64,000 nt of DNA. Origin: Bolinopsis microptera (taxonomy: Eukaryota > Ctenophora > Tentaculata > Lobata > Bolinopsidae). Shown piece after piece: positions 4,341 through 64,000 of this stretch. Where the stretch lies: assembly GCF_026151205.1 (NCBI RefSeq), contig NC_087083.1:14624280-14688279 (forward strand). Direction: 5' to 3'. The position numbers were made by a program, and so were the translations under genes. The stretch's first letter is position 1; the number at the start of each line of letters is the position of its first letter. Under the pieces are notes generated by a model, which was not told the origin of the DNA, searched no databases, and saw only the letters and a list, made by a program, of their open reading frames with translations.

Positions 4341-8860
<4,520 letters not shown>

Positions 8861-42233: not shown

Positions 42234-45200
42234 CTGAAAACAAGATTCAAAAGATTGTTTACTAAATTCATTGTATATTAAATTCATTCGGATAAATTTT
42301 AAGTGTCTAAACTTTAACGTTTGCTATTTGAGGATACCCCGCGAAACAGCTTCTTAGCACATCAAAACATTTACGCATGTAATAATATTTGTTTCACTCA
42401 TTTTTCCCCGTGATTTTAATCTTCCTCATTTTTTGATTGTCATTATCGTTTCAGAATATTTTGAAATTGGTATTGTATAAAATGTTAATTTCCAGTAAAG
42501 TCCGAAATGGAGATACACTAACCAGGGTCTCTAGAAGAAGACTGATAACGAAACATTGCTGACTCTATCAGGATCTCTTAACTCCTCTTCTTCATCTCCT
42601 TGTGTGCTTACCTGATGATTAATGGAGTAGATATTTAGAATGCAATCAGTCCAAACCAGGTAAAGTTAACATATCTTACTGTTATACCAGGTAAAGTTAA
42701 CATATCTTACTGTAATACCAGGTAAAGTTAACATATCTTACTGTTATACCAGGTAAAGTTAACATATCTTACTGTTATACCAGGTCTTTGTTCCCCCCAA
42801 TCTCCCCACTGATTACTCCGCTGAGGCTGCGACTGAAAATACCACACTTATAACTAAACGGTTATTTTTGTAGTTTGTAACTAAAGGATTATTTAGTGAA
42901 TGTTCTAAACTATTTGATATATGCGGAATTGTAGTTTTACTGGTAAAGTACTCTTATAATAACTTAATAATATTATTATTTATAATTTAATCTTATAATA
43001 ATATTAATCACGTGATACAGTATGGTCGCCTATACCTGTGGTCTTTGGGGCACCGAGAGAAGAGTGAAAGTTCTCCAGAACTTTCTGCTGTTTTTATCAG
43101 GCATATCTTGGGTTATGACCAAAGAGAAAACTACACCCTGCTACTAGAGTAAAAGAGAAACATCCAATATAAACATCCAATATGAACCTGCCCTGCTATT
43201 AGTTATATTGCAGTCTTGTTTTGGGCGGATTTTACTATTGAGTACACTAAAATAAATAAGTAACTGAAAATAAAAAGGCAAAGAATTGTTTATAAGTTTA
43301 TAATTGCACTCAGCACGATAAGAGTTTCGTATTTTCCTTGGTCTAATGATTTATAAACAACTATCAAGGTAAAGATAAACCACACTAATCAGTAGAGATA
43401 AAGACGAAAGGGTCCGTTTTTTCAATTGTTTAAATCAAAATATAGTTTTGAAGTTCATTTAGATCTTGGATTTAAATTAACGATACTGAGCGAAAAATGT
43501 AAAACAAAGTTTGAAAACTAAAAGTTAAATATAATCAACACGAATACAAGGTGTACATTGCGGGTGTTACTGCATGTTTGTTTATATTGCAGTTATTAAC
43601 CGTTCACACAGTGCCAAGCCTGCAATAACATTGTCATTACCTTAATATAAACATATGATAATATACACGGTGTTACGGTTTCTGCTTCACTAGAGATAAG
43701 CCAGCGTATCAGCTGTACATGAACATAATATATCATTCAAAATAAAATGAACTTATTGGTTTCACTGGCATGTTTGTATCTTTGTATCAAAAAGGGAAGG
43801 ATACTTTTTGTCCTTACACAGGGCCAACAACATGTTATGAAATGCTGTCTGCTACATGCCCAGCTTCTACACAAAAATGTGCATCAGTCTACATGACTAT
43901 CAGTCTACATGACTATCAGTCTACATGACTATCAGTCTACATGACTATCAGTCTACATGACTATCAGTCTACATGACTATCAGTCTACATGACTATCAGT
44001 CTACATGACTATCAGTCTACATGGACTATCAGTCTACATGACTATCAGTCTACATGACTATCAGTCTACATGACTATCAGTCTACATGACTATCAGTCTA
44101 CATGACTATCAGTCTACATGACTATCAGTCTACATGACTATCAGTCTACATGACTATCAGTCTACATGACTATCAGTCTACATGACTATCAGTCTACATG
44201 ACTATCAGTCTACATGACTATCAGTCACTAATAGTATACGGTGATTTTAGTTTTATTCACATGTTTTTATTTTTGCCCCATTTTCGGTCAATTTTTGCCC
44301 GATTGACCGGTTATTTGCACTTAGGATTTATGAGCCGTTTATTTGTTGAGAAGTCGAAGAAGGATTGTAAATTAGTAAGTTACTGATAAAAATTAGTTTC
44401 AATTGAAGCAAATGGCAATTTAATTTAAAATGCTTTCTGTTTGTTGTTGGTTTAAACAGGAATTACGGAATCGTTTTTGAATTGCTTTTGAAAATGAGTG
44501 AGAATTGATCTTAACACAACGAAAATAAATTTATGTAAATGCTTGTCTAAAAATAATCTAAAAGTTCAATTGCATATGTATCTAAATATGATATTTTAAA
44601 AACAGTGTTTAAATCTCCTGCCAAATGTGTCAAATGTTCAGAAATGTCCATAAAAATGTTTACATGACAAGGCCGGATTCTTCCTCCTCCTCCTCTTCTT
44701 CTAGTTGAACAATAACGTTCTGAGGATTTGTTGAACTTCTTACCACCCACTTCGAACTTCACCGACACTCTGAAACGGAATGTCTTTTATCAAGATTGAT
44801 CATGTTACATAATTATTATGGCCAGTTGGTAATCTAGCTAGGCACACTTGGGGCACACTTGGGGCACAAAATTGAAATTCCTGGGGCACACACTTCATTT
44901 CATCTATTATCATTAAATGAAATGAAAGTCATCAACTGCATTTATAATGAGTAACCTACCTGTATGTTCCAGCCTCCTTGGCAGTAACTCCCGTGATAGT
45001 TAGTGATGTCTTGTCCTCGCTCAGCGAGTATCTGTCTCCGTTCAACTGAGGGTAGATGAGGATTGTTAGACAAGCACATAATTTTATTGTCTTAAAAAGT
45101 TCCACTATTTAATTCACTATTTAATTCACTATTTATTTCACTATTTCCTTGTAAGTGTGAGTGGAAATAATTAATTATTTATGATTCCCATTAATTAATT

Positions 45201-48200
45201 ACCTTCTTGTTGGGCACTTTAACCCAGGTAATCTTATCCGCAGCTGGTGTTGGTACAACGTTAATCTCAACATTTATAGTAACAATCTCCTCCCTCTTTA
45301 ACTGTGTAGAACTTCTTACCAGCTTCAACAGCCACCTGCACAATAACCAGCTTAGTTCACAACTCGAATAACCAGCTTAGTTGAACAACTGAATAACCAG
45401 CTTAGTTAACAACTGAAATAACCAGCTTAATTAACAACTGAATAACCAGCTTAGGTTAACAACTGAATAATTAGCTTAGTTAACAACTGAATAACCAGCT
45501 TAATTAACAACTGAATAACCAGCTTAGTTAACAACTGATAACCAGCTTAATTAACAACTGAATAACCAGCTTAATTAACAACTGAATAACCAGCTTAGTT
45601 AACAACTGGAATAACCAGCTTAATTAACAACTGAATAACCAGCTTAATTAACAACTGAATAACCAGCTTAGTTAACAACTGAATAACCAGCTTAGTTAAC
45701 AACTGAATAACCAGCTTAGTTAACAACTGAATAACCAGCTTAGTTAACAACTGAATAACCAGCTTAATTAACAACTGAATAACCAGCTTAATTAACAACT
45801 GAATAACCAGCTTAATTAACAACTGAATAACCAGCTTAGTTAACAACTGAATAACCAGCTTAGTTAACAAACTGAATAACCAGCTTAGTTAACAACTGAA
45901 TAACCAGCTTAGTTAACAACTGAATAACCAGCTTAGTTAACAACTGAACTAACCAGCTTAATTAACAACTGAATAACCAGCTTAGTTAACAACTGAATAA
46001 CCAGCTTAATTAACAACTGAATAACCAGCTTAGTTAACAACTGAATAACCAGCTTAGTTAACAACTGAATAACCAGCTTAGTTAACAACTGAAATAACCA
46101 GCTTAGTTAACAACTGAATAAACCAGCTTAGTTAACAACTGAATAATTAGCTTAGTTAACAACTGAATAACCAGCTTAGTTAACAACTGAATAATTAGCT
46201 GGATAATTAGCTGGCTAATTAGCAATGATTAGCATGTTATTAATTTGAGTCATTACCTTCAATTAAAAGGAAAGATAATGAATATGCTGAATAGTGTACT
46301 CACTGTGACAAGATGACCTCTACTAGTTCGCTGGTTTCAGTGCTGGGTATAAACATAGCGTACACTCCCGCGTTCTGATCAGCAATATTATTGATGTTCA
46401 GCAACATTTTGTCGTCTGACATTTCTGAAAATAGGGTAAATTTTAGGTGATGTTAGGGTGTATTGTGGGCATCAAGGTATATGCTTTGCCTTGTTGGCTA
46501 CATGGTAGTGTGAATCCATTAACTCGGATACAGAATCACAATCTAACATAAATTACTGATCGGTCTTCTGATAGAATAAATAGTAAAATAAGATGATAAA
46601 TAGTGTGTACCTATGTTACTGAGACCGTCAGCAGGCAGTTTAACCGAGGTTTAACTGGTCCACTCCACCCTCGCTGGAATCGAAATCTTTCTCCGAGTTG
46701 AGGGGTACAGTTCACCACGGCCAGCTCTCCGTATTTAGCGTGGGTACACTTTAGGCTCACACGAGGTCGTTCGGTCTGAACAGAGCTTCAATTAGATTGA
46801 CAGGAAAAATAGAATTCTGGTAGTAAGTTGTGGTTGAGGCCGAGGAAAGTGAACTAAATATAACTGGACGTATGTTTAGATAACTCACTATATTCACAGT
46901 ATGCCATGTCCTGGACCACTGGGTTGAGTGGTAAGCGTAGTAATCTCCAGCAGTTTCTGCACCCGGTATATTCTCCCTTACTAGTACTCGCCCCTGGTTA
47001 AGCCCCCTCGCTGTCAGTCTTTATGCACACTTCTCTGTAACCACTCCATCCTCGAATTAGGGTGACCCTAGAAATTGTGTATCGTTAGTTGTTTAGTGTG
47101 GAGACAGTGTTAATTAAGTGTGGTCACAGTGTTAACTTCAGTGTGGACACATGTTAACTTTAGTGTGGGAACAGGGTTATACTTTAGTGTGGACACAGTG
47201 TTAACTTTAGCGTGGTCACAGTGTTACTTTAGTGTGGACACAGTGTTAACTTTAGTGTGGTCACAGTGTTTGTTAACTTTGTGTCGACACATTGTTAACT
47301 TTAGTGTGTGTGGTCACAAGTTATGTTATCTTTAGTGTGGTCACAGTGGTTAACTTTAGTGTGGTCACTAGTGTTAACTTTAGTGTCGACACATTGTTAA
47401 CTTTAGTGTGGTCACAGTGTTAACTTAAGTGTCGACACATTGTTAACTTTAGTGTGGTCTCAGTGTTAACTTTTAGTGTGGTCACAGTGTTAACTTTAGT
47501 GTGGTCACTAGTGTTAACTTTAGTGTGGTCACAGTGTAACTTTAGTGTGCTCACAGTGTTAACTTTAGTGTGACACAGTGTTAACTTTAGTGTGGTCGGA
47601 CATATAGTTTATTGAGATAAAAGAATTAAAAGTCTAACCAACTAATTAAAAGAAGTAAATTAACCAGTGTTACCTGGTTACCTGGTTACCTGGTTACCTG
47701 GTTACCTGGTTACCTGGGTTACCTGGTTACCTGTTTACCTGGTTACCTGGTTACCTGGTTACCTGGTTACCTGGTTACCTGGTTACCTGGTTACCTGGAT
47801 ACCTGGTTACTGGTTACCTGGTTACCTGGTTACCTGGTTACCTGGTTACCTGGTTACCTGGTTACCTGGTTACCTGGTTACCTGGTTACCTGGTTACCTG
47901 GTTACCTGGTTACCTGGTTACCTGGTTACCTGGGTTACCTGGTTACCTGGTTACCTGGTTACTGGTTACCTGGTTTACTGGTTACCTGGTTACCTGGTTA
48001 CCTGGTTACCTGGTTACCTGGTTACCTGGTTACCTGGTTACCTGGTTACCTGGTTACTGGTTACCTGGTTACCTGGTACCTGGTTACCTGGTTACCTGTT
48101 ACCTGGTTACCTGGTTACCCTGGTTACCTGGTTGCCCTTGGTTACCTGGTTGATGTAAGCAGCACGCTTGGCACCACACGAGTAATGAGGGGCAGGAGGC

Positions 48201-51200
48201 TTCTCAGCCATCATCTGGAATCCAGTAGTGAATCTGTACCAATCCTTACCTGGTGTATTCACACATCAATAATCAGTATCACTAAACGTTCTTCAATGGT
48301 CAGTTATAACGTTAATCCAAGCAACAGAAGGCGATTGTAATAATTTAAATTATAAGAGTGTTACAGTGTTACAGTATTACAGTATTACAGTGTTACAGTA
48401 TTACAGTGTTACAGTGTTACAGTGTTACAGTGTTACAGTGTTACAGTGTTACAGTGTTACAGTGTTACCCTTGTTGTAGTCGGGGTGTAGGTCGTCTTGT
48501 GACTCGGACACGTAAACTGGTTCCTCCCATCCTCTGATAGTGGGTGTTAGCGTGCAGGCACACATCAGTATCTGCCAGGGAGGATTTCATCAACATGGGT
48601 ACAGTTTCATTAACAATAGTCTAGTTGTATATTTAATTTAACTTCAAGGAAATTTATTTGTGAAGAATAGCCTTATTGTAAATTTCAACACCAAGTCTTT
48701 TTCTGCGTAACTCCTAGCAGATCGAACTTGTTTAACATTACTTACGTTATTAAGATAACACTCCAAACGTAACAGATTTATTGCAGGGTTAAACTTAATG
48801 GGTAATTAAGATAACGTACCAACACTCCACACGTAGTGGTAGTTAGGAGTAGGCTGGAGCCAGTATACGTAGTGTACTAATTAAGATAACGTACCAACAC
48901 TCCACACGTAGTGGTAGTTAGGAGTAGGCTGGAGCCAGTATACGTAGTGTACTAATTAAGATAAGTACCAACACTCCACACGTAGTGGTAGTTAGGAGTA
49001 GGCTGGAGCCAGTATACGTAGTGTACTATTAAGATAACGTACCAACACTCCACACGTAGTGGTAGTTAGGAGTAGGCTGGAGCCAGTATACGTAGTGTAC
49101 TAATTAAGATAACGTACCAACACTCCACACGTAGTGGTAGTTAGGAGTAGGCTGGAGCCAGTATACGTAGTGTACTAATTAAGATAACGTACCAACACTC
49201 CACACGTAGTGGTAGTTAGGAGTAGGCTGGAGCCAGTATACGTAGTGTACTAATTAAGATAACGTACCAACACTCACACGTAGTGGTAGTTAGGAGTAGG
49301 CTGGAGCCAGTATACGTAGTGTACTATTAAGATAACGTACCAACACTCCACACGTAGTGGTAGTTAGGAGTAGGCTGGAGCCAGTATACGTAGTGTACTA
49401 ATTAAGATAACGTACCAACACTCCACACGTAGTGGTAGTTAGGAGTAGGCTGGAGCCAGTATACGTAGTGTACTAATTAAGATAACGTACAACACTCCAC
49501 ACGTAGTGGTAGTTAGGAGTAGGCTGGAGCCAGTATACGTAGTGTACTAATTAGATAACGTACCAACACTCCACCACGTAGTGGTAGTTAGGAGTAGGCT
49601 GGAGCCAGTATACGTAGTGTACTAATTAAGATAACGTACCAACACTCCACACGTAGTGGTAGTTAGGAGTAGGCTGGAGCCAGTATACAGTAGTGTACTA
49701 ATTAAGATAACGTACCAACACTCCACACGTAGTAGTAGTTAGGAGTAGGCTGGAGCCAGTATACGTAGTGTACTAATTAAGATAACGTACCAACACTCCA
49801 CACGTAGTGGTAGTTAGGAGTAGGCTGGAGCCAGTATACGTAGTGTACTAATTAAGATAACGTACCAACACTCCACACGTAGTGGTAGTTAGGAGTAGGC
49901 TGGAGCCAGTATACGTAGTGTACTAATTAAGATAACGTACCAACACTCCACACGTAGTGGTAGTTAGGAGTAGGCTGGAGCCAGTATACGTAGTGTACTA
50001 ATTAAGATAACGTACCAACACTCCACACGTAGTGGTAGTTAGGAGTAGGCTGGAGCCAGTATACGTAGTGCTCTCCGCAGTCCTTTACTCTGATCTTGAT
50101 GACGTGTGTAGTTGAGCCAAACTTAGCTGTCCTCTCCACCTCACCATCTTCAGGTGCTGGCAGGTCTCCCTCCATCCAGGACGGGTACGCTCCACCTGGA
50201 ACAAATTGTTAATCTACTGACGGGTACGTGGAACCTGGGACATATTGTTAATCTACTGACGGGTACGTGGAACCTGGGACAAATTGTTAATCTAGTGACG
50301 GGTACGCGGCATCTGGGACATATTAGGTAGTGCGCCATCGACAGTGAGCCGCGCGTGCCGACTGTAGGATGGTTTTTTAGCGCTAATTTCGGCCAGCACA
50401 ATTTTCTTCAAACAAATAGATATTGAGTATCCTTCCCGACCTCCAATTGCAACAAAAATTGGTAAGCTAACTTAAAGACTTACAAGGAAAGTGTCCGAAA
50501 AATTTAAAGCATATCCAACCATCAGACATTATGTTACAGCTAAAAGTAGCGTATTTTGCCCCATTTTGATCACTATATCAACTCCGATATCCACCAAATT
50601 TTTCGGACAGTTGTGAAAGCTCTATTGGAAGGTCGTCGCCAATTTCCAGAATGATATCATTTAAGGAACTGAAGATAAATCCGAATAATACGACAAAAAT
50701 GGTCAAATTTGGACGAATTTGGTCAAATTACGCGACTTTTACAGCTACTTTTGCTCCAAAAGCCGCGCACCATCAAATATGGCACCTAGGCGAAACTCAC
50801 TGATCTTTCCAAAAAGGTATGAAAAATTTGGTATTGTGGAAATTCTCACAATCTCTAGAAAACAGTGGTACAAAAATTTTTAAAATCCGAGCAAGTTTAT
50901 TTTTATCGTGCACCTCCTAGACATATTGTTAATCTACTGACGGGTACGTGGAACCTGGGACAAATTGTTAATTTAGTGACGGGTACGCGGCATCTGGGAC
51001 AAATTGTTAATCTAGTGACGGGTACGCGGCATCTGGGACATATTGTTAATCTACTGACGGGTAGGCGGAACCTGGGACAAATTGTTAATCTACTGACGGG
51101 TACGCGGCACCTGGGACAAATTGTTAATCTACTGACGGGTACGCGGCACCTGGGACAAATTGTTAATTTAGTGACGGGTACGCGGCATCTGGGACAAATT

Positions 51201-51893
51201 GTTAATCTAGTGACGGGTACGCGGCATCTGGGACATATTGTTAATCTACTGACGGGTACGTGGAACCTGGGACAAATTGTTAATCTACTGACGGGTACGC
51301 GGCATTTGGGACAAATTGTTAATCTACTGACGGGTACGCGGCATTTGGGACAAATTGTTAATCTACTGACGGGTACGCGCGGCACCTGGGACAAATTGTT
51401 AATCTAGTGACGGGTACGCGGCACATGGGACAAATTGTTAATCTAGTGACGGGTACGCGGAACCTGGGACAAATTGTTAATCTAGTGACGGGTGGGCACT
51501 CGGTAAAAAACCTCATTTTTATAACAAATGGATATAAGGATGCATTGTATCACGTGGTGACCCCCTAGTAGAGTTTCTGCGATACAGGGGGAGCCGCGCA
51601 CGCGTGCGCGGCGGGTCATACCACGTATGACAAAGGATGCATAGATTTCTAAGTAATTAATGGCTTGGCTGGTAACAACAGCACCGATGATCTTGAAGTT
51701 AGACTACAACTAAAGAGCATAGTAATATTGAAGGTAGACTACAACTAAAGATCATAGTAATATTGATTAACCAGGTAACCTGGTAACCAGGTAACCAGGT
51801 AACCAGGTAACCAGGTAATATTGCTGCTCACCTCCGTAGTTATTGTCAGGCTGGTAGGTGGGCATAGTACCGTGTCCAACAGTAAGTCCTGTA
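42046..51893 (-). CDS. Split gene: D8C-like domain, three Ig-like domains, C-terminal RING (5' incomplete)
   Basis: Thirteen minus-strand exons were placed by eye from GT-AG junctions, open frame and phase: 51,832-51,893 (cut), 50,016-50,195, 48,469-48,571, 48,146-48,214, 46,889-47,067, 46,611-46,775, 46,304-46,424, 45,203-45,335, 44,960-45,045, 44,664-44,769, 42,773-42,832, 42,523-42,611 and 42,046-42,233. Intron phases from the first junction are 1,1,0,0,0,1,2,0,2,0,0,1, and every exon fits them if four exons each carry one one-base error; one further in-frame TAA remains. Domain order is D8C-like, Ig-like x3, Arg/Gly-rich then acidic linker, RING. The RING predicts an E3 ubiquitin ligase; the Ig-like part would bind partners. 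The Ig and D8C-like domains lack the Cys needed for their usual disulphides and no signal peptide or membrane span is visible, so a cytosolic protein is inferred. I know of no family with this order. It could instead be two adjacent genes, with the split in the 1.8-kb intron at 42,833-44,663. Confidence 0.6.
42523..42611 (-). CDS. Exon: acidic linker before the RING
   Basis: The acceptor ATCATCAG precedes 42,611 and the donor is CCTG|GTTAGT at 42,522. The frame reads VSTQGDEEEELRDPDRVSN, then a Ser run. As written a TAG interrupts it; removing one G near 42,545 gives SLSSSSRDP and makes the exon length fit the phases on both sides. The sequence at its start (CAGGTAAGC) is also a perfect donor, so the boundary could be read in the opposite sense. 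Downstream (lower coordinates) 42,234-42,522 is an AT-rich intron with no further feature. Confidence 0.5.
42655..42788 (-). repeat. 31-bp minisatellite built on a 5' splice site (4 copies)
   Basis: Units begin at 42,655, 42,686, 42,717 and 42,748, and a fifth partial copy is the end of the exon itself at 42,779. On the minus strand each unit is ACCTGGTATAACA (exon end), then GTAAGATATG (donor), then GTTAACTTT. The unit nearest the exon at lower coordinates diverges (CTGGTTTGGACT). Confidence 0.85.
42773..42832 (-). CDS. Exon: short Gln/Gly-rich linker
   Basis: This 60-base exon lies between acceptor TATTTTCAG and donor AACA|GTAAGA and encodes SQPQRSNQWGDWGEQRPGIT, phase 0 on both sides. The donor is the first copy of a 31-bp minisatellite (42,655-42,788), each unit of which repeats the last 13 bases of the exon plus the donor. 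A homopolymer of six G lies in the middle and could hide an indel. Confidence 0.5.
42833..44663 (-). other. Large intron, 1.8 kb
   Basis: AT-rich sequence with no exon I can support. It holds a 16-bp tandem array (43,883-44,226). The frame at 44,198-44,386 on the plus strand has no supporting feature. If the D8C-Ig part and the RING part are separate genes, the boundary would be here. Confidence 0.5.
43883..44226. repeat. 16-bp tandem array (about 21 copies)
   Basis: The plus-strand unit is ATCAGTCTACATGACT, almost perfect, with one inserted G near 44,023. It lies inside an intron and, unlike several neighbours, I see no splice junction in or beside it. Confidence 0.95.
44664..44769 (-). CDS. 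Exon: end of third Ig-like domain plus Arg/Gly-rich tail
   Basis: Acceptor CCGTTTCAG precedes 44,769 and the donor CAT|GTAAAC follows 44,664. The frame set by the upstream exon reads R, VSVKFEVGGKKFNKSSE, RYCSTRRRGGGGRIRPCH, phase 2 in and 0 out. The first part is the F-G hairpin of the Ig-like fold (GTYRVSVKFEVGG across the junction). A different frame reads VIVQLEEEEEEES, which would also suit the end of an intracellular Ig domain, so a one-base error near 44,720 cannot be excluded. Confidence 0.6.
44960..45045 (-). CDS. Exon: third Ig-like domain, strands D to F
   Basis: Acceptor TACCCTCAG and donor ACAG|GTAGGT flank an 86-base exon reading LNGDRYSLSEDKTSLTI then TGVTAKEAGTY. SLTI-x6-EAGTY is the classic E-F strand signature of I-set Ig domains. 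The Cys normally two residues after Tyr is absent (YRV). Confidence 0.85.
45203..45335 (-). CDS. Exon: third Ig-like domain, strands A to C
   Basis: Acceptor TTATTGTGCAG precedes 45,335 and the donor AAGAAG|GTAATT follows 45,203. In the frame set by both neighbours it reads QWLLKLVRSSTQLKREEI, VTINVEINVVPTPAAD, KITWVKVPNKK. ITW is the core Trp of strand C; strand B (VTINVEI) lacks the usual Cys. Another frame of the first half reads VAVEAGKKFYTVKEGG, which looks Ig-like, but it would need two compensating errors. Confidence 0.7.
45340..46205 (-). repeat. 24-bp minisatellite abutting a 3' splice site (about 36 copies)
   Basis: On the minus strand each unit holds GTTAACTAAGCTGGTTATTCAG; read in parts, GTTAACTAAG resembles a branch point and GGTTATTCAG an acceptor. 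The last unit, at 45,335-45,360, is the real intron end GGTTATTGTGCAG of the exon at 45,203-45,335. Scattered one-base indels are present (for example near 45,609, 45,871 and 46,122). The open frame through part of it (LVIQLLTK repeats) is a by-product of a 24-base period. Confidence 0.9.
46304..46424 (-). CDS. Exon: second Ig-like domain, strands D to G
   Basis: Acceptor CTATTTTCAG and donor CA|GTGAGT flank a clean 121-base exon reading (E)MSDDKMLLNINNIADQNAG, VYAMFIPSTETSELV, EVILS. MLLNINNIADQNAGVYAM is an E-F strand signature; the Cys after Tyr is replaced by Met. Confidence 0.8.
46611..46775 (-). CDS. Exon: second Ig-like domain, strands A to C (frame errors)
   Basis: Acceptor CTCTGTTCAG and donor ATAG|GTACAC. 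The frame starts TERPRVSLKCTHAKYGEL, AVVNCTPQLGE; adding one A in the AAA run near 46,683 continues it as KISIPARVEWTS and, after an in-frame TAA, SVKLPADGLSNI. VNC and VEW are strands B and C. The TAA sits in AGTTAAACC, which partly repeats the following CGGTTAAAC, so a small duplication or a base error is likely. Phase 0 in and 1 out fit the neighbours only with the one-base insertion. Confidence 0.65.
   Translation of the reverse strand, partial: TERPRVSLKCTHAKYGELAVVNCTPQLGERFRFQRGWSGPVKPRLNCLLTVSVT
46889..47067 (-). CDS. Exon: first Ig-like domain, strands C to G
   Basis: Acceptor ACAATTTCTAG and donor ATA|GTGAGT. The exon has 179 bases; one extra A in the AAA run near 47,017 makes 180 bases and 60 open codons: GHPNSRMEWLQRSVHK, RLTARGLNQGRVLVREN, IPGAETAGDYYAYHS, TQWSRTWHTVNI. 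MEW is strand C; RVLVRENIPGAETAGDYYAY is strands E-F, again without the Cys. The exact 60-codon fit and the phase match on both sides support the correction. Confidence 0.75.
47096..47595. repeat. 23-bp minisatellite in an intron (about 22 copies)
   Basis: The plus-strand unit contains GTGTTAACTTTAGTGTGGTCACA with variants (GTCGACACA, GTGGACACA). It ends about 30 bases before the acceptor of the exon at 46,889-47,067 but I do not see the splice site itself inside the unit. Units vary more than in neighbouring arrays. Confidence 0.9.
47668..48150 (-). repeat. 8-bp array of consensus 5' splice sites (about 60 copies)
   Basis: The minus-strand unit is AACCAGGT, so the array reads CAG|GTAACC over and over. 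Its first copy at 48,141-48,150 is the real donor ATCAACCAG|GTAACC of the exon at 48,146-48,214. Every unit is a near-consensus animal donor (CAG|GTAA). The YLVTWLPG open frame read through it is a by-product of the repeat. Confidence 0.95.
48146..48214 (-). CDS. Exon: start of first Ig-like domain
   Basis: Acceptor TGGATTCCAG, donor CAG|GTAACC; 69 bases, 23 codons, phase 0 both sides: MMAEKPPAPHYSCGAKRAAY then INQ. HYSC probably is strand B with its Cys, paired with MEW of the next exon. Confidence 0.65.
48358..48468 (-). repeat. 8-bp array starting at a 5' splice site (about 14 copies)
   Basis: The minus-strand unit is GTAACACT (variant GTAATACT). The first unit is the donor itself: AACAAGG|GTAACACT at 48,461-48,475, end of the exon at 48,469-48,571. 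Confidence 0.9.
48469..48571 (-). CDS. Exon between D8C-like and Ig-like regions (frame error)
   Basis: Acceptor TCCCTGGCAG, donor AACAAGG|GTAACA, 103 bases. The phase from the upstream exon gives DTDVCLHANTHYQRMG; one extra G in the GGG run near 48,525 would continue as RNQFTCPSHKTTYTPTTTR and meet the next exon in phase 0. A third frame (TIRGWEEPVYVSESQDDL) is also open and looks protein-like, so the reading is not settled. Confidence 0.5.
48804..50070 (-). repeat. 75-bp tandem array of exon end plus donor (17 copies)
   Basis: Copies recur every 75 bases from 48,821 to 50,017 (16 steps). On the minus strand each unit begins CACTACGTATACTGG and ends GTGGAGTGTTG|GTACGTTATCTTAATTAG: it holds the last 50-odd bases of the exon at 50,016-50,195, its donor, and about 20 intron bases. 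The highest-coordinate unit is the exon end itself. Each unit has an in-frame TAA just after the donor. Isolated one-base indels (for example near 49,028, 49,274 and 49,327) give the local error rate. Confidence 0.95.
50016..50195 (-). CDS. Exon A: D8C-like domain (uromodulin/OIT3 type), Cys-depleted
   Basis: Acceptor TTTGTTCCAG and donor GTTG|GTACGT flank exactly 180 bases, phase 1 both sides, all open. It reads GAYPSWMEGDLPAPEDGEV, ERTAKFGSTTHVIKIRV, KDCGEHYVYWLQPTPNYHYV, WSV. With the preceding exon (TMPTYQPDNNYGG) this follows the D8C pattern of uromodulin, GP2 and OIT3: MPT, Trp-x-x-Gly-x-x-Pro, Gly-x-Val-x-Arg-x-Ala, then an I-x-V-K-x-C strand, YVY-x-L-x-PT and a final aromatic strand. 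Only the Cys of VKDC remains; the other conserved Cys are Gln, Lys, Tyr or Ser. D8C domains are normally extracellular and disulphide-bonded, so this copy is unusual. Confidence 0.7.
50179..51493 (-). repeat. 39-bp minisatellite straddling a 3' splice site, interrupted by a transposon (about 18 copies)
   Basis: Period 39 (for example CTGGGAC on the plus strand at 51,072 and 51,111). On the minus strand each unit is TTAACAATTTGTCCCAG|GTGCCGCGTACCCGTC; the real acceptor and exon A start is TTTGTTCCAG|GTGGAGCGTACCCGTC. So the unit holds the intron end, the AG and the first 16 or so exon bases. The array is split by the element at 50,324-50,919. Because 39 is a multiple of three, both strands show long open frames here; I regard them as non-coding. 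Confidence 0.9.
50324..50919. mobile_element. Non-autonomous hAT-like element (MITE), 596 bp
   Basis: It interrupts the 39-bp array cleanly: GACATATT precedes it (50,317-50,324) and GACATATT follows it (50,920-50,927), a 7-8 bp target duplication shared with the array sequence. Ends are TAGGTAGTGCGCCAT on the left and, in reverse complement, TAGGAGGTGCACGAT on the right, imperfect inverted termini of the TAGG/GGTGC kind seen in hAT elements. There is no transposase frame. Inside is a perfect 13-base inverted repeat, GTCCGAAAAATTT at 50,493 and its complement at 50,596. The interior is AT-rich and unlike the rest of the window. Confidence 0.65.
51494..51831 (-). other. Intron remainder with a short duplication and donor-like repeats
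   Basis: It contains a 20-base perfect palindrome (51,593-51,612), a 36-base direct duplication around TAGACTACAACTAAAG (51,692 and 51,728), and about five copies of CAGGTAAC on the plus strand (51,770-51,817), the same 8-mer as at 47,668-48,150 but in the opposite orientation. Confidence 0.6.
51593..51612. repeat. Perfect 20-bp GC palindrome
   Basis: GCCGCGCACGCGTGCGCGGC is its own reverse complement, an isolated GC-rich island in AT-rich intron sequence. Confidence 0.8.
51832..51893 (-). CDS. Exon upstream of exon A, cut by the array junction
   Basis: Donor TACGGAG|GTGAGC. The frame required by exon A reads TGLTVGHGTMPTYQPDNNYG, phase 1 out, giving NNYGGGAYPSW across the junction. MPTY fits the start of the D8C-like domain. 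At about 51,893 the sequence changes to the 696-bp array in a frame that does not continue this one, so the exon's 5' part is missing. Confidence 0.6.
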
Positions 51894-54800
51894 CATCACT
51901 CGGCTCACAATGTCCATCGCTAGCGACAGTGTCTCCCTGTCCAAGGGAAGTGGAGCTCCCTAGTGATTCAGGTAATGGCTGATCTGCACCGATTTGCGTG
52001 CCGGGACACCTTGCTGTCAGCGAAATAGAGTGGTGCTGTCACCTGGAGCAGGTGAATGAACGTGGTGACTTCGTCGAGGTAGCTATACTACTTCTTCTGA
52101 CATGTGCCGACCAACCGTCAATGTCTTTATCGAAAACTTTCCGCAGGCTCGCCAATCTACGGTGAAAATGACAGGGATCGGACACAACTCGGGGGAGCAA
52201 GGACCCCTGATCCGTCTACATCGCGACCTTTACATCAGAGAAGGAAATGAGAGTGTCAGCATCCTTGCCCTGCAAAGGATCAGACTCAGCGAAGTCAGTT
52301 TTTATCCGTGCTGCTAGCTGGAGAACGTCCGATGGAAAACTCCTGTGCGGTGCTCCGAAATGGCTGGAAGGACTTGTGCTCTTTTGTTCGTGGTTGTTTG
52401 GATGACGATGATGATGGAGTGGGTTCTCGTATGACTGGAACACGAAGGAATCGCCTTATCACAGCTGGACGTACTTGAACCTAGAAGTAGAATCGTCGGA
52501 TGACGACGAAAAGGTGATGTGGTTGACCAGGACGAGGTTGATCTCGACAGGCCAGACAACGTAGTCGGTGAAGTACTTGTACTTGCCGTATATCCATACA
52601 CTCGGCTCAATAAGGTTCCATCGCCTAGCGGACAGTGAACTCCCTGTCCAGGAAAGTGGAGTCCCCTAGTGATCAAGGGTAATTGGTGATTCTGCCGCCG
52701 ATGCGTGCCGGACACTCTTGCTGTCCAGCGAAAATAGAGCTGGTGCTGTCACCTGGAGCATGTGCTTGAACGTTGGTTGACCTTCACGAGGAGCATCACC
52801 GCTTCTTCAGAATGTGCACGACCAACAGATACAATGTCTTTATCGAACTTTCCCGCAGGCTCGCCAATCTCTGTGAAAATGACAGGATCGGACACAACTC
52901 GGGGAGCACGGACCACCTGATCGTATTCTCAGGTCCTTTACATCAGAGAAGGAAACTGAAGAGTGTCTGCATCCTTGCCTGCCAAAGGGATCAGACTCAG
53001 CGATGTCAGTTTTATCCGTGCTGCTAGCTGGTGAACGTCAGATGAAACTCCTGTGCCGGGTCTCCGAATTAAAATGATGGCTGGAGGACTTGTGCTCTTT
53101 GTCGTGGCTTGTAGATGCGGATGATGGAGTGGGTTCTCGTATGACAGGAACCGAGGAATGCATTTCATGCTGGACGAATTGAACTAGAAGTAGAAATCGT
53201 CCGGATGACGACGAAAAAAAGGATGATGTGGTTGACCAGGACGGGATGATTTATCGACAGGCCAGACAACGTGTCGGTGACCGTACTTGTACTTGCCTTA
53301 TATCCATCACTCGGCTCACTAATGTCTCCATCGCCTAGCGACAGTGACTTCCCTGTCCAAGGAAGTGGAGTCCCCTAGTGATTCAAGGTAATGGCTTATT
53401 CTGCGACGATGCGGCGGACACTCTTGCTGTCCAGCGAAATAGAGCCGGTGCTGTCTCCTGGAGCAGGTGATTGAACGTGGTGACATTCGTCGAGGTAGAT
53501 CACTCTTCTTCCTGCATGTGCCGACCAACCAGACAATGTCTTTATCGAAAATTTCCGCAGGGGATCGCAATCTCGGTGTGCAAATTGACAGGATCGGACA
53601 CAACTCGGGGAGCACGGACCACCTGATCGTCTTCATCCGGATCATTTACATCAGAGAAGGAACTGAGCGTGAGTCAGCATCCATTTGCCCTGCATAAGGA
53701 TCAGACTCAGCGGAAGTCAGTTTTATCCGTTGCTGCCTAGCTGGAGAACGTCAGATGAAATCTTGCCGGTCTCCGAATATGGTGGAGGGACTTGTGCTCT
53801 TTGTGTGGTTGTTGATGACGATGATGAGGAGTGGGTACTCGATAAGACTGGAACCGACGGAATTCTTATCACAGCTGGACGAACTAGAACTAGAAGTAGA
53901 AATCGTCGGATGACGACGAAAAGGATGTGTGGTTGACCAGGACGAGGATGATCTCGACAGGCAGACAAAGTGTCGGTTGACGTACTTGTACTTGCCTTAT
54001 ATCCCTCACTCGGCTCATCTCATGTTCCATCGCTAGGCGACAGTTAGGACTCCCTGTCCATGGATAGTGGATCCCCTAGTGATTCAAGGTAATGGCTGAT
54101 TCTGCCGTCCGATGCGTGCCGGACACTCTTGCTGTACAGAGAAAATCGAGCGTGTGCTGTCACTGGAGCAGGTGATTGATCGTCTGGTGACCTCGTCGAG
54201 GTAGATCACCTCTTCTTCTGCATGTGCCGACCAACCAGACAATGTCTTTATTCCGAATTGTCCGCAGGCTCGCCAACTCGGTGAAAATGACAGGACTCGG
54301 GACACAATCGGGGAGCACGGACCACCTGATCGTATTCATCCGATCCTTTACATCAGAGAAGCGAAACTGAGGAGTGTCAGCATCCTTGCCCTGCAAAGAT
54401 CAGACTCAGCGAATTCAGTTTTATCCGTGCTGCTAGCTGGAGAACGTCCAGATGAAATCCTGTGCCGGTCGGTCTCCGAAATGGCTGGAGGACTTGTGCC
54501 TCTTTGTCGTGGTTGTTGATGACGATGATGTGGAGTGGGTTCTTCGTATGACAGGAACCCGAGGAATGCCTTACACTGATGGACGAACTTGAACCTAGAA
54601 GTCTAGAATCGTCGGATGACGACGAAAAGGATGATGTGTTTGACCAGGGACGAGGATTGATCTGACAGGCCAGACAAACGTCGTCGGTGACGACTTGTAT
54701 TGCCTTATATCCATCACTCGGGGCTCACTAATGTCTCCATGCTAGCGACAGTGACTACCCTGTACATGGGAAGTGGAGTAACCTAGTCATTCAGGAAATG

Positions 54801-57800
54801 GCTGATTCTGCCGTACGAATGTCGTGCGGACACTCTTTGCTGTCCAGCGAAATAGAGAAGATGGTGCTGTCACTGGAAAGGTGTGATTGAACGTGGTGAC
54901 CTTAGTCGAGGGTAGAATCACCTCTTCTTCAGCATGTGCCGATCCAACCAGCAATGTCTTTATCGAACTTTACGCAGGGCTCGCCAATCTCGGTGAAAAT
55001 GACAGAGATCGGGACACAACTCGGGGGAGCACGGACCACCTGATCGTCTTCATCCGGAACCTTTAATCAGAGAAGGAAAACTGAGAGTGTCAGCATCCTT
55101 GCCACTGCAAAGGATCAGATCAGCGAAGTCAGTTTTATCCGTGCTGCTAGCTGGGAGAAGTCCAGATGAAATCCTGTGCCGAGTCACCGAAATGGCTGGA
55201 GGACTTGTGCTCTTTGTCGAGGTTCTGTTGATGGACGATGATGATGGAGTGGTTCGTATGAACTCGGAACCGAAGGAATCGGCCCCCCCCCCCCCCCCCC
55301 CCCCCCCCCCTTATCATGCTGGACGACTTGAACTAGAAGTAGAATCGTCGGATGACGCCGAAAGGATGATGTGGTTGACCAGGAGAGGATGTTCTCGACA
55401 GGGCCAGACAAGCGTGGCGGTGACGTACTTGTACTTGATTATATCTCAACACTCGGCTCACTAATGTCTCCATCGCTAGCGACAGTGACTACCTGTCCAA
55501 GGAAGTGGAGTCCCATAGTGGATTCAAGCGTAATGCTCGATTTGCCGACCGATGCGTGCGGACATCTTGCTGTCCGCGGAAATAGAGCTGGTGCTGTCAC
55601 CTGGAGCCAGGTGATTGAAACGTGGTGACTTCGTGAGGTAGATCACCTCTTCTTCTGCAGGGACGACCAACCAGCAATGTCTTTTTAAAAAATTTCCGAA
55701 AATAAAACTTTTCCGCAGGCTCGCCATCTCGTGAAAAATGAAAGGATCGGACACAACTCGGGGAGCACGGACCACCGTTCGTCTTCATCCGTGATCCTTT
55801 ACATCAGAGAAGGAACTGAGAGTGCAGCATCCTTGCCCTGCAAAGGATCGGGACTCAGCGAAGGTCAGTTTTATCCGTGCTGCTGCTGGGAGAACGTTCA
55901 GATGAAACTCCTTTGCCGGTCTCCGAATGGCTGGAGGTCTTGTGCTCTTTGTCGTGGTTGTTGATGACGATGAGATTGGAGTGGGTTCTCGTATTGACTG
56001 GAACCGAAGGAATCGCCTTTTCACTGCTGGAGAACTAGAACTAGAAGTAGAATCGTCGGATGACGACGAAAAGGATGATGTGGTTTGACCAGGACGAGGA
56101 TGATCTTGACAGGGCCAGACAAACGTGGTCGGTGGACGTACTTGTACTTGCCTTATATCCTCACTCGGCTCACTAAAGTCCTCCATCGCCTAGGCGACAG
56201 TGATCCCTGTCAAGGAAGTGGAGTAGTCCCTCCAAGTGATCAAGGTAATGGATGATTCTGCCGACGATGCGTGCCGGACATCTTGATGTCCACGCGAAAT
56301 AGAAGGGGTGCTGTCACTGGAGCAGGTGATTGACGTGGTGACCTTCGTCGAGGTAGATCACCATTCTTCTGCATGTGCCGACCAACCAGACAATGTCTTT
56401 ATAGAACTTTCCGATGGCTCGCCACTATCGGTGAAAATGGACTGGATCGGACACAAATCGGGGAGCCAGGACCCACCTGATAGTCTTCATCCGGATCTTT
56501 ACATCAGAGAAGGAACTGAGAGTGTCAGCTTCCTTGCCCTGCAAAGATCAGACTCAGCGATGTCAGTTTTATCCCGTGCTGCCTGCTCGCTGGAGAACGT
56601 CCAGATGAAAAAATCCTGTGCCGGTCTCCGAAATGGCTGGAGGACTTGTGCTCTTTGTCTTGGTTGTGATGACGTGATGATGGAGTGGGTTCTCGTATGA
56701 TGGAACCGAAGGAATCGCCACCTTTCACTTGCTGGACGAATAGAACTAGAAGTAGATCTTTATCGTCGGATGACGACGAAAAGGATAGATGTGGTTGACC
56801 CAGGACGAGGATGATCTCGAAAGGCCAGGACTAACCTGTCGGTGACGTACTTGTACTTGCCTTATATCATCAATCGGCTCACTATGTCTCCATCGCCTAG
56901 CGACAGTGACTCCCTGTCCCAAGGAAGTGGGAGTCCCTAGTGAATCATGGTTATGGCTGATTCTGCCGACCGATGCTCATGACGGACACTCTTGCTGTCC
57001 AGCGAATAGAAAGCTGGTTGCTGTCACCTGAGCAGGTGAATGAAAAGTGGTGACCTTCGTCGAGGTAGATCACCTCTTCTTCTGCATGGATGCCGACCAA
57101 CCAGACAATGTCTTTATCGAACTTTCCGCAGGCTCGCCATCTCGGTGTGAAAAAGAGGATCGAAACACTGGGGAGCACGACCACCGATCGTCTTCTCCGG
57201 ATCTTTACATCTGAGAAGGAACTTGAGGTGTCAGCATCCTTCCCTTGCAAAGATCAGCTCAGCGAGTCAGTTTATCGTTGCTGCTAGCTGGAGTACGCCT
57301 TCCAGATGAAAAAACTTGTGCCGGTCTCCGAATGGCTGGAGGGACTTGTGCTCTTTGTCGTGGTGTTGATGACGATGATGATGGAGGTGGGTTCTCGTAT
57401 GACTGGAACCGAAGGAATCGCCTTATCACTGCTGGACGGAACTTGAACTACGAAGTAGAATCGTCGGTTGACGACGAAAAGGATGATGTGGTTGACCAGG
57501 ACGAGGTTGATCTGACAGGCAGGACAAACGTGTCGGTGACGTACTTGTATGGCCTTATATCCATCACTCGGTCTCAATAATGTCTCCATCGCCTCGCGGA
57601 CAGTGATCCCTGTCCAAGGAGTGGTGTCCCCTAGTGATTCAACGGTAATGGCTGATTCTGCCGACCGATGCGTGCCGGACACTCTTGCTGCTCAGCGAAA
57701 TAGAGCTGGTGCTGTCACCTGGAGCAGGTATTAACGTAGGTGACCTGCGTCGAGGTCTGATCACCTCCTTATTCTGCATGTGCGACCAACCAGACAATGG

Positions 57801-60800
57801 TCTTTATCGAACTTTCCGAGAGGCTCGCCAATCTCGGTGAAAATGACAGGGATCGACACAACTCGGGGAGCACGGACCACTTGATCGTACTTCATCCGGA
57901 TCCTTTACATCAGAGAAGGAACTGAGAAGTGTCAGCATACATGCCCTCGCAAAGGATCAGCTCAAGAGAAGTCAGTATTTTTCCGTGCTGCTAGCTGGAG
58001 AACGTCCAGATGAAACTCTGTGCCGGTCTCCGGAAATGGCTGGAGGACTTGTGCTCTTTGTCGTGGTTGTTGATGACGATGATGATGGAAGTGGGTTCTC
58101 GTTTGGCATGGAACCGAAGGAATCGCCTTACTCACTGCATGGCACGAACTTGAGACTCGAAGTAGAATCGTCGGATGTCGACGAAAAGGTTGTGGTGGTA
58201 GCCAGGACGAGGAGATGCGACAGGCCAGACTAACGTGTCGGTGACCAGTAAATGTACTTGCCTTATATCCATCACCCGGCTTCACTAATGTCTCATCGCC
58301 TAGCGACAGTGACTCCCTGATCCAAGGAAGTGGAGGTCCCCTAGTGATTCAAGGTAATGGCTGATCTGCCGACCGCGATGCGTGCCGGACACTCTTGCTG
58401 TCCGCGAAATAGAGCTGTGCTGTCCACCTGGAGCAGGTTGGATTGAAAAGTCGGTGACCTTGTCGAGGTAGATCACCTCTTCTTCTGCATGTGACGACCA
58501 ACCTGACAATGTCTTTTATCGAAACTTCCGCAGGCTCGCCAATCCGGTGAAAATGAACAGGATCGGAACACAACTCTGGTTGAGCACGGTACCACCTGAT
58601 CGTATTCATAGAATATTTAACATCAGAGAAAGGAAATGAGAGTGTCAGAATCGTGCCCTGCAAAGGATTCAGACTCAGCGACGTCAGTTTTATCCCGTGC
58701 TGCTTGCTGGCAGAACGTCAGGATGAAACCTCCTGTGTGCCGGTCTCGAATGGTGGAGGACTTGTGCTCTTTTGTCGTGGTTGTTTGATCGATGATGATG
58801 GTGTGGGTTCTCGTATGACTGGAACCGAAGGAATCGCCCTTTCACTGCTGGACGGAACCTTGAACTAGAAGTAGAATTCGTCGGATGACGACGAAAAGTA
58901 TGATTTGGTTGACCAGGTACTACGAGGATGGTCTCGAAGGCAGACAAACCGTAGTCGGTGACGTAATTGTTACTTGCTTATATCCATCACTAGGCCCACT
59001 AATTCTCCATAGCCTAGCGACAGAGTTGACTCCCCTGTCAAGGAAGTGGAGTCCCTATGAATTCAAGGTAATGGTGATTCTGCGACCGATGCGTGCCGGA
59101 ACACTCTTGCTGTCCAGCGAATTAGAGCTGGTTGCTGTTGTCAACTGGAGCAGTTGATTGAACGTGGTGACCTTAGTCGAGGTAGATCACATCTTCTTCC
59201 AGCATGTGCCGACAACAAGAAATGTCTTTATCGAAACTTTTCAGCAGGCTCGCCAATACGGTGAAAATGACAGGATCGGACACAACTCGGGCGAGCACGG
59301 ACACCTGAATCGTCTTCATACGTGATCCCTTTACATCAGGAAGGAACTGGAGTGTCAGCCATCCTTGCCCGTGCAAAGGATCAGACTCAGCGAGTCAGTT
59401 TTTTATCGTGCTGCTAGCTGGAGAACGTTCCAGATGAAACTCCTGTGCCGGTCTCGAAATGCGGAGGACTTGTGATCTTTGTCTGTTGTTGATGAGTGAT
59501 GATGGAGTCAGTGGTTCCGTTATGACTGGAACCGAAGGAATCGCCTTATCACTGCTGACGAACTTGAACTAGAAGTAGAATCGTCGGATGACGACGAAAA
59601 GGATGATTGGTTGCCCTGGGACGAGGATGATTCTCGACAGGCCAGACAAAAACGTGACGGGACTACTTGTACTTGCCTTATATCCATACTCGGCTCAATA
59701 ATGTCTCATCGCCTAGCGACAGTGAATCCCTGTCAAGGATGTTGGAAGTCCACTAGTGATCAAGTAATGGCTGATTCTGCGACCGATTGCGTGCGGACAC
59801 TCTTGCTGTCCAGCGAAATAGAGCTGGTGCTGTCACCTGAGCAGGTGGATGAACGTGTGTGACCTTCGTCGGGTAGACACCTTTCTTCTGAATGTGCCGC
59901 ACCAACCAGACAATCGTCTTTATCGAACTTTCCGCAGGCTCGACAATCTCGGTGAAATGACAGGTCGTGAAACAACTCGGGGTGCACGGACCACCTATCG
60001 TCTTCATCCGGATTCCTTTACAGCAGAGAAGGAACTGTGGCAGTGTAGCATCCTTGGCCCTGCAAAGGATCAGACTCAGCGAAGTCAGTTTATCCGTGTG
60101 CCTAGCCGGAGAAAAGTCCAGATGAAACCTGTGCCGGTCTCGAAATAGGTGGAGGACTCTGTGCTCTTGCTCGTGGTTGTTGATGACGATGCTGATGGAC
60201 GTGGGGTTCTCGTATGAATGGACCGAAGGAATCGCCTTATCACTGCTGGACGAATTGAACTAGAAGTAGAATCGTCGGGAATTGACCGACGAAAAAGGAT
60301 GATGTGGTTGACCAGGACGAGGATGATCTCGACAGGCCAGACAAAACGTGTCGGTGACGTACTTGTAATTGACTTATATCCATCACTCGGCTCATAGTCT
60401 CCATCGCCTAGCGACCAGTGACTCCCTGTCAAAGGAAGTGGAGTCCCCTAGTGATTCAAGGTATGGCTGATTCTGCCGACCGATGCGTGCCGGAGTATAT
60501 ACTCTTGTGTCCAGCGAAATAGAGCTGGTGCGTCACCAGGAGCAGGGGATTGAACGTGGTGACCTTCGTTCGGGTAGATCAACTCTTCATTGGCAAGTGC
60601 CGACCAACCAGACAACGTCTTTATCGAACTTCCGCAGGCTCGCCATTCTCCGGTGAAAATTGACAGGATCAGGACACAAACTCGGGGAGCACGGACCACT
60701 GATCGTCTTCAACCGGATCCTTTACATCAGAGAAGGAACTGAGCAGTGTCAGCATCCTTGCCTGCAAAGGATCAGACTCAGCGAAGTCAGTTTTATCGTG

Positions 60801-63800: not shown

Positions 63801-64000
63801 TGCCGACCAACCGACAAGTTTTTATCGAACTTTCCGCAGCTGCCACTCGGGAAAAGACAGGAGGGACCACTCGGGGAGAAAACGGACCACCTATCGCTTA
63901 CCGGATCCTTTACCGAGAAGGAACTGAGAGTGTCAGCACCTTGCCCTGCAAAGGAAAACTCAGGAAGTCAGTTTTTATCCTGCTGCAAGGGAGAACGTCC
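51893..64000 (-). repeat. 696-bp coding tandem array, right block (about 17 noisy copies)
   Basis: Same unit and orientation as the left block. Copies from 51,893 to 62,230 carry mainly scattered insertions; 62,240-64,000 is worse, with lost bases and inflated homopolymers. No open frame longer than about 150 codons survives, yet each 232-residue repeat can be followed piecewise on the minus strand. The array runs off the window end. The noise pattern differs from the left block, suggesting that these copies were assembled from few raw reads. Confidence 0.9.
55283..55310. other. Poly-C tract (28 bases) inside a repeat copy
   Basis: It sits where the unit has ATCGCCTTATC, so two C have become 28. 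The surrounding unit is otherwise in register, which shows how the longer homopolymer blocks may have arisen. Confidence 0.85.

Follow-up and report, generated by a model that had tools for sequence, protein, structure and literature searches.

Tandem arrays at exon-intron borders of a ctenophore gene resemble the mirages of amphioxus

Why should several minisatellites with unrelated repeat units lie at splice junctions of one and the same gene? The question is raised by a stretch of 64,000 nucleotides from the genome of Bolinopsis microptera (NC_087083.1, here contig C12, positions 14,624,280 to 14,688,279; hereafter the window), in which a minus-strand gene could be read from the sequence as exons A to I plus a partial upstream exon, with nine introns numbered i0 to i8. 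A first-pass annotation had placed six arrays at real splice sites of this gene. We find that five of them do lie at its junctions, and that arrays of the same kind have been described in amphioxus as mirages. The arrays are probably mirage-type minisatellites, born at random in short introns and tolerated by splicing.

Arrays at the junctions of the window gene

A protein search of the genome assembly (264.65 Mb in 232 contigs) with exons A and C led to a paralog on another contig. The match, C9:5210433-5210813, lies inside a single open frame of 3268 amino acids (locus L034, C9:5209400-5213399), which runs without interruption through D8C and Ig domains to a C-terminus identical to that of the window gene. 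The joined exon flanks of i0 to i8 are collinear with this locus in 9/9 cases. Small gaps occur at i1, whose acceptor coordinate is one base off, and at i3, i4 and i6; relative to C9, one or two extra bases stand in the window at i6. Being both collinear and intronless, L034 serves as a natural spliced reference showing which bases are exonic, and the predicted junctions of the window gene are well supported by it. The gene encodes D8C and Ig domains: D8C_UMOD was matched in the L034 protein by a Pfam scan, while the same scan of the window exons gave no match for D8C, which appeared only with the intact C9 frame. A sequence search of the PDB gave no match.

Every array named in the first-pass annotation was recovered by Tandem Repeats Finder (TRF), so their existence is confirmed (Table 1). 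Three arrays of the window gene straddle junctions (the 75-bp, 39-bp and CCAGGTAA arrays) and two abut them (the GTAACACT and 24-bp arrays). The sixth had been misplaced: the stop codon of the window gene is at 44662-44660, after the same C-terminus as in the C9 copy, and the 31-bp array, about 1.9 kb past that stop, is therefore outside the gene. The putative donor beside the 31-bp array (ACA/GTAAGA, where the slash marks the junction) has a phase that, as read, does not fit the RING exon. Units copy across at least three junctions. The GTAACACT and 24-bp arrays adjoin theirs, and the 24-bp array, as delimited by TRF, resembles the start of exon G only weakly. In the 75-bp unit, 55/55 exonic bases are identical in the second copy. 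Many units, read directly, carry AG/GT splice signals. These introns hold six further arrays that do not touch a junction, all of which the annotation had omitted.

In the 75-bp and both 8-bp arrays, reading on from the exon meets a stop and the proximal site is open; in the 39-bp array a stop is met on the way into the exon if reading starts at the next copy upstream, and again the proximal site is open. An upstream copy of the 24-bp array also meets stops. Since in four of these five arrays any distal site is followed by an in-frame stop, tolerance fits better than use as alternative sites.

Table 1. Predicted exons of the window gene, and tandem arrays in and beside it (window coordinates; x, copies; slash, exon-intron junction)
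Feature	Position	Strand	Basis
Exon A, end of a D8C domain (...IKIRVKDCGEHYVYWLQPTPNYHYVWSV/)	50016-50195	-	Collinear with intronless L034; D8C_UMOD in L034 protein
Exon B	48469-48571	-	Acceptor position; collinear with L034
Exon C (GKDWYRFTTGFQMMAEKPPAPHYSCGAKRAAYINQ)	48146-48249	-	Collinear with L034
Exon D, frame broken by indels in window copy	46889-47067	-	Collinear with L034
Exon E	46611-46775	-	Collinear with L034
Exon F	46304-46424	-	Collinear with L034
Exon G (Ig I-set part)	45203-45335	-	Collinear with L034
Exon H	44960-45045	-	Collinear with L034
Exon I, with stop codon 44662-44660	44660-44769	-	Collinear; C-terminus as in L034
75-bp array x17, donor of i1; unit joins the final 55 bp of exon A to 20 intronic bp (GTACGTTATCTTAATTAGTA)	48803-50070	-	TRF
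39-bp array x3.7, across i0 acceptor, 16 bp in exon A	50180-50324	-	TRF; junction collinear with L034
39-bp family x14.7, separated by ~600 bp of other sequence from the x3.7 block	50920-51493	-	TRF; contiguous array in L035
8-bp array GTAACACT x14, begins exactly at i2 donor (AACAAGG/GTAACACT), no exonic base	48357-48468	-	TRF; junction collinear with L034
8-bp array CCAGGTAA x60.4, across i3 donor, 6 exonic bp of exon C; unit holds AG/GT	47669-48151	-	TRF; junction collinear with L034
24-bp array x35.2, ends 6 bp from acceptor exon of i6; units carry acceptor-like TTATTCAG	45342-46194	-	TRF; junction collinear with L034
31-bp array x4.2, beside putative donor (ATAACA/GTAAGA) of another, downstream gene	42655-42785	-	TRF; gene end at 44660
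23-bp array x21.5, within i3, 24 bp short of acceptor exon, no junction touched	47092-47597	-	TRF
8-bp array, no junction touched; unit is rotated reverse complement of the CCAGGTAA unit of i3	51768-51818		TRF
35-bp array x2.1, no junction touched	51693-51766		TRF
12-bp array, no junction touched	45103-45146		TRF
11-bp array, no junction touched	44841-44868		TRF
12-bp array, no junction touched	46187-46223		TRF

A near-identical second copy of the gene lies nearby on the same contig (L035, C12:14710400-14716399). With arrays masked, seven of the eight stretches that BLAST aligns between the two copies are 95-100% identical; the eighth, at 73%, looks like a dispersed repeat. The arrays themselves have changed in length: L035 holds 8 copies of the 75-bp unit (17 in the window), 74 of GTAACACT (14), 108 of CCAGGTAA (60), 12.2 of the 39-bp unit (14.7+3.7) and 21.9 of the 23-bp unit (21.5), and its 24-bp array is cut by the end of the locus. 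Copy number thus differs 1.8-, 2.1- and 5.3-fold for three arrays between these assembled copies, which may be alleles or paralogs. Indels break the frame of the window copy at places where L035 is intact, and may reflect either assembly error or decay. In the window the 39-bp array is split by some 600 bp of different sequence (50325-50919); a related sequence stands upstream of the unbroken array in L035 (about 5040-5590), which suggests a dispersed element.

The surroundings of the gene have several further features. Positions 1-41,000 and 52,000-64,000 of the window are largely satellite-like, the gene lying between them; a recurring open frame has a 696-bp spacing where the flanks are regular (29291-33229), and they are interrupted by homopolymer runs (392 C, 1079 G, and 401 G + 241 T) that resemble assembly artefacts. 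A 16-bp array (x21, 99% matches by TRF) occupies 43883-44226 between the two genes and is not near a known splice junction. In L035, positions 5681-5766 are a degenerate AACCCT repeat (x14), telomere-like and chromosome-internal.

Chance expectation and cases in other genes

Junction contact in the window gene was modelled by reducing each array to one unit and placing this founder segment uniformly in the introns (two intron ends are 1-2 bp off). The two 39-bp blocks entered the count as a single array together with the stretch between them, from which a 10-bp x3 match (50700-50729) was excluded. The array-holding introns, so reduced, measure about 114-304 bp, and in introns this short a random founder often strikes a junction. 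Contact is seen for 5 of 11 arrays, with 2.3 expected at no tolerance (P = 0.053) and 3.0 at a tolerance of 6 bp (P = 0.157), in a gene that was itself chosen by the first-pass annotation for its arrays. The argument that six such coincidences would be unlikely by chance was overstated.

For the rest of the genome we used 25 loci of 10 kb at hand-chosen round coordinates. One of them (L022, CCT repeats) was excluded from the edge, intron, unit-motif, array-word and single-site counts, leaving 24. Exon calls outside the window gene come from a small ab initio coding model and are partly backed by Pfam. Tandem repeats make up 29,566 of 200,000 sampled bases. For 72 arrays, 274 edge tests turned up five coding segments that end at a junction, and 5760 random positions turned up 68 (score of at least 6), with ratios of 0.8-1.6 over four thresholds. 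Confidently called exons enclose 19 introns with 12 arrays, of which two are junction-associated and 1.2 would be expected to be; one L030 array enters this count twice, once for each of two introns, and the second of the two cases, also in L030, is doubtful. Predicted boundaries overlap an array in 5 of 95 cases (first 20 loci plus L001, L002, L004 and L005), three of these being in loci picked by pattern, and in 2 of 83 once L002 and L005 are left out. Strong donor-like words occur in 3 of 56 array units (4.1% of random segments) and acceptor-like words in 1 of 56 (3.6%). The enrichment that would have been looked for elsewhere on the first-pass reading is thus not in evidence, and a general preference of arrays for splice sites in the sampled loci was rejected, there being no clear excess in samples that are small and of low power.

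Individual genes do hold such arrays, and we list six further likely cases: L005, L002, L011, L028, L040 and L043. Border-spanning repeats of 65 bp (L005), 83 bp (L002), 67 bp (L011), 27 bp (L028) and 36 bp (L040) were found; L011 and L028 are clear cases inside sampled loci, and L005 and L002 are clear cases in loci picked by donor pattern. By Pfam, L005 is the LMF1 gene (LMF1_C, 5.1e-29), L043 a CDK-like gene (Pkinase, 1e-8), and L039, a locus taken up below, has a C8 match (2.5e-8); the exons in L002, L011, L028 and L040 gave no Pfam match, the L002 peptide query being approximate. An exon in locus L047 may be spectraplakin-like. The intron at 413-698 of L043 is nearly all repeat, its length of 286 bp being close to 7x41 bp, and it is a possible candidate for growth by whole-intron duplication. 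A search of the genome with Pkinase gave many matches that are whole domains in one open frame.

Mirages and the origin of the arrays

Mirages are described for the amphioxus globin genes BflGb6 and BflGb9 and for Adh3, PGBD5 and troponin C (PMC3087553, PMC3902484). They are tandem duplications, minisatellite-like, in which a 5' or a 3' exon-intron border is repeated; units are 10-160 bp long and in many cases hold AG/GT signals, length differs between haplotypes, regular splicing is reported as undisturbed, and somatic length instability is reported for the Adh3 mirage. The window arrays match this structure: three of them are tandem repeats that span the border, 5' and 3' borders are both affected, and many units hold AG/GT. 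The duplicated border is a donor in the 75-bp and 8-bp arrays, L040 and L028, and an acceptor in the 39-bp array and L002. By structure, then, the window arrays are a further instance of the mirage class, in a ctenophore, and the statement that no system of this kind had been described gives way. They differ from the amphioxus cases in their host, in that five arrays stand in one gene and some fill most of an intron, and in being known here from DNA alone. A limited literature search found no report of mirages in ctenophores; those that it found are described in amphioxus only.

Two other known phenomena come close. Intron gain by tandem genomic duplication has reportedly occurred in potato RdRp. 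Tandem duplication is documented as an intron source for Cryptococcus CNN00420 (PMC2395259) and in a review (PMC3443670). The likeness is that a tandem duplication involves genic splice signals; the difference is that at least i1 seems older than its array, and that the C9 copy looks like an intron-losing retrocopy and not the ancestral state. Dual-specific splice sites within tandem repeats are described for human UBC and VCX3A (PMC10809524). The CCAGGTAA unit is similar to these in that it holds AG/GT, so that any one copy might in principle serve as either a donor or an acceptor. The window introns do not show the relation of intron to unit length described there, their ratios being non-integer (i1 1444/75, i2 219/8, i3 1078/8, i6 968/24); the L043 intron comes close to a whole number of units.

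On the reading we prefer, of random birth and tolerance, the genome is rich in tandem repeats and the introns of this gene are short, so that a short tandem duplication would by chance take in an exon-intron border or lie against one. The exon-nearest splice site would still give the normal message and extra units would mostly bring in-frame stops, so that the extra copies would remain intronic and be tolerated; the array would then expand or contract by slippage or unequal exchange until most of the intron was filled. Neutrality, random seeding, slippage or unequal exchange as the motor, and use of the exon-proximal site are what we infer from the arrays, and several observations weigh against them. 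Use of the exon-proximal site is predicted from sequence. The stop argument fails for the 24-bp array in the window copy, where the proximal i6 junction is itself out of frame in the phase tested, which is the expected one (L035 ends before that acceptor). If large arrays only are considered, 5 of 6 are at junctions, with 1.5 or 2.0 expected (P = 0.004 or 0.014, in a post hoc subset). GTAAGT clusters lie within 7 bp of, or across, a junction in 5/5 cases among the matches listed, and the donor words GTGAGT and GTAAGT rank as the two highest of eight words in arrays after normalisation.

The last two observations belong to the case that splice donors are real hot spots of minisatellite birth, above random seeding, for example through transcription- or R-loop-linked repair or slippage at GTAAG-type sequence. 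Genome-wide, GTAAGT pairs spaced 8-38 bp number 9108 + 9487 = 18,595, against 2745 + 2643 = 5,388 for the reversed word, and GTRAGT pairs at period 14 number 596 + 668, against 236 + 418 for the reversed pattern. All clusters of three or more matches among 100 places listed made up the GTAAGT sample. For the TGAATG control, all tandem clusters of that size among 100 places listed were taken, and five identical matches (C1:3609068-3614780) were omitted for lying 0.9-2.2 kb apart. The GTAAGT clusters include L040, with 24 exonic bp in the unit, and the CDK-like gene L043, where the array fills the whole intron; on the opposite strand, donors lie 2 and 7 bp from where the arrays of L039 and L042 begin, and an acceptor, also on the opposite strand, lies 5 bp from the end of a 14-bp array in L005. 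Among the matches listed, TGAATG tandem clusters touch a junction in 0/4 cases (Fisher P = 0.008 against the 5/5 of GTAAGT); by density, GTAAGT gives 5 arrays in 2.585 Mb of one strand and TGAATG gives 4 in 3.74 Mb, both strands counted (P = 0.054). Picking arrays by a donor word is bound to favour donors, although in three of the five the chosen word is on the strand opposite to the gene. Array copies per site (single sites counted in 212 kb of non-array sequence, array counts being copy-weighted) are 129 for GTGAGT and 113 for GTAAGT, against 99, 63, 60 and 38 for the comparison words TGAGTG, GATAGT, TGATAG and TGAATG; GACTTT has 20 and the acceptor word TTTCAG 18.5. TGAGTG is nearly as high as the donor words, however, and TTTCAG is not above its reverse (19.8), for which reason acceptor-word enrichment in arrays was rejected. 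The sampled arrays, both strands taken together, hold 51 copies of GTAAGT and 69 of TGAATG, so that the donor word is not the commoner of the two, and the tests on sampled loci showed no enrichment. As a whole the donor-word evidence is suggestive and a donor-biased seeding of arrays is possible; that donors are hot spots above random seeding we hold to be rather unlikely. It is likewise doubtful that donor sites are hot spots genome-wide with about a thousand junction-seeded arrays lengthening introns and copying exon ends, a figure roughly extrapolated from five arrays per 2.6 Mb of one strand, assuming that the match listing covers the + strand alone.

The remaining explanations are weaker still. 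The arrays might be the remains of intron birth via tandem duplication of AGGT-bearing exon sequence, the intronless state of C9 being ancestral. All nine introns are indeed missing in C9, but these include the array-free i4 and i5, so that one retroposition explains all nine losses, and similarity to the 3' untranslated region of the window gene extends in that of C9 up to an A-rich stretch. The C9 copy is probably a retrocopy. Its AG/GT-like junctions at i0 and i2, together with the AG/GT held by the CCAGGTAA unit, would suit intron birth, as would the array of L043, which fills its intron to within 1-2 bp of either end; the lengths of the window introns are, however, not multiples of those of their units. 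Other relatives, compared by eye, point both ways: in L036 the equivalents of i0 and i1 are uninterrupted in one D8C repeat, but another repeat has an intron near the i1 place, and in the more distant paralog L037 an exon ends at a donor in the position and phase of i1. It seems that i1, at least, is older than its array. C9 as a record of nine recent intron gains was rejected as unlikely, since L037 seems to share the position and phase of i1 and array-free introns are missing too. Some of the introns may nonetheless have been gained, and intron birth as the source of the arrays is improbable. Alternatively, the arrays might be kept by selection because they adjust splicing or expression, acting as decoys or as redundant splice sites; their presence in two near-identical gene copies speaks for this. 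Given the fold differences in copy number between those copies for three arrays, the in-frame stops brought by extra units in four, and the several arrays in the same introns that carry no junction, we consider this very improbable. Finally, error-prone long-read assembly might have invented the expansions or whole gene copies, a suspicion raised by the homopolymer runs of the window (up to 1079 G), its satellite-like flanks and its frame-breaking indels where L035 is intact. L035, however, has the same arrays, and several unrelated genes have comparable ones; such an artefact is scarcely credible, although exact copy numbers may still be wrong.

Random birth in short introns and tolerance by splicing thus remains the reading that we favour. 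Mirages in several genes of a ctenophore would make of them a broader animal phenomenon. A chromosome-scale genome, together with the RNA-seq and long-read Iso-Seq data reported for Bolinopsis microptera in PMC10232365, can serve to test whether border-spanning repeats seed or lengthen introns; and a donor bias, if true, would link splicing or transcription to local duplication of DNA.

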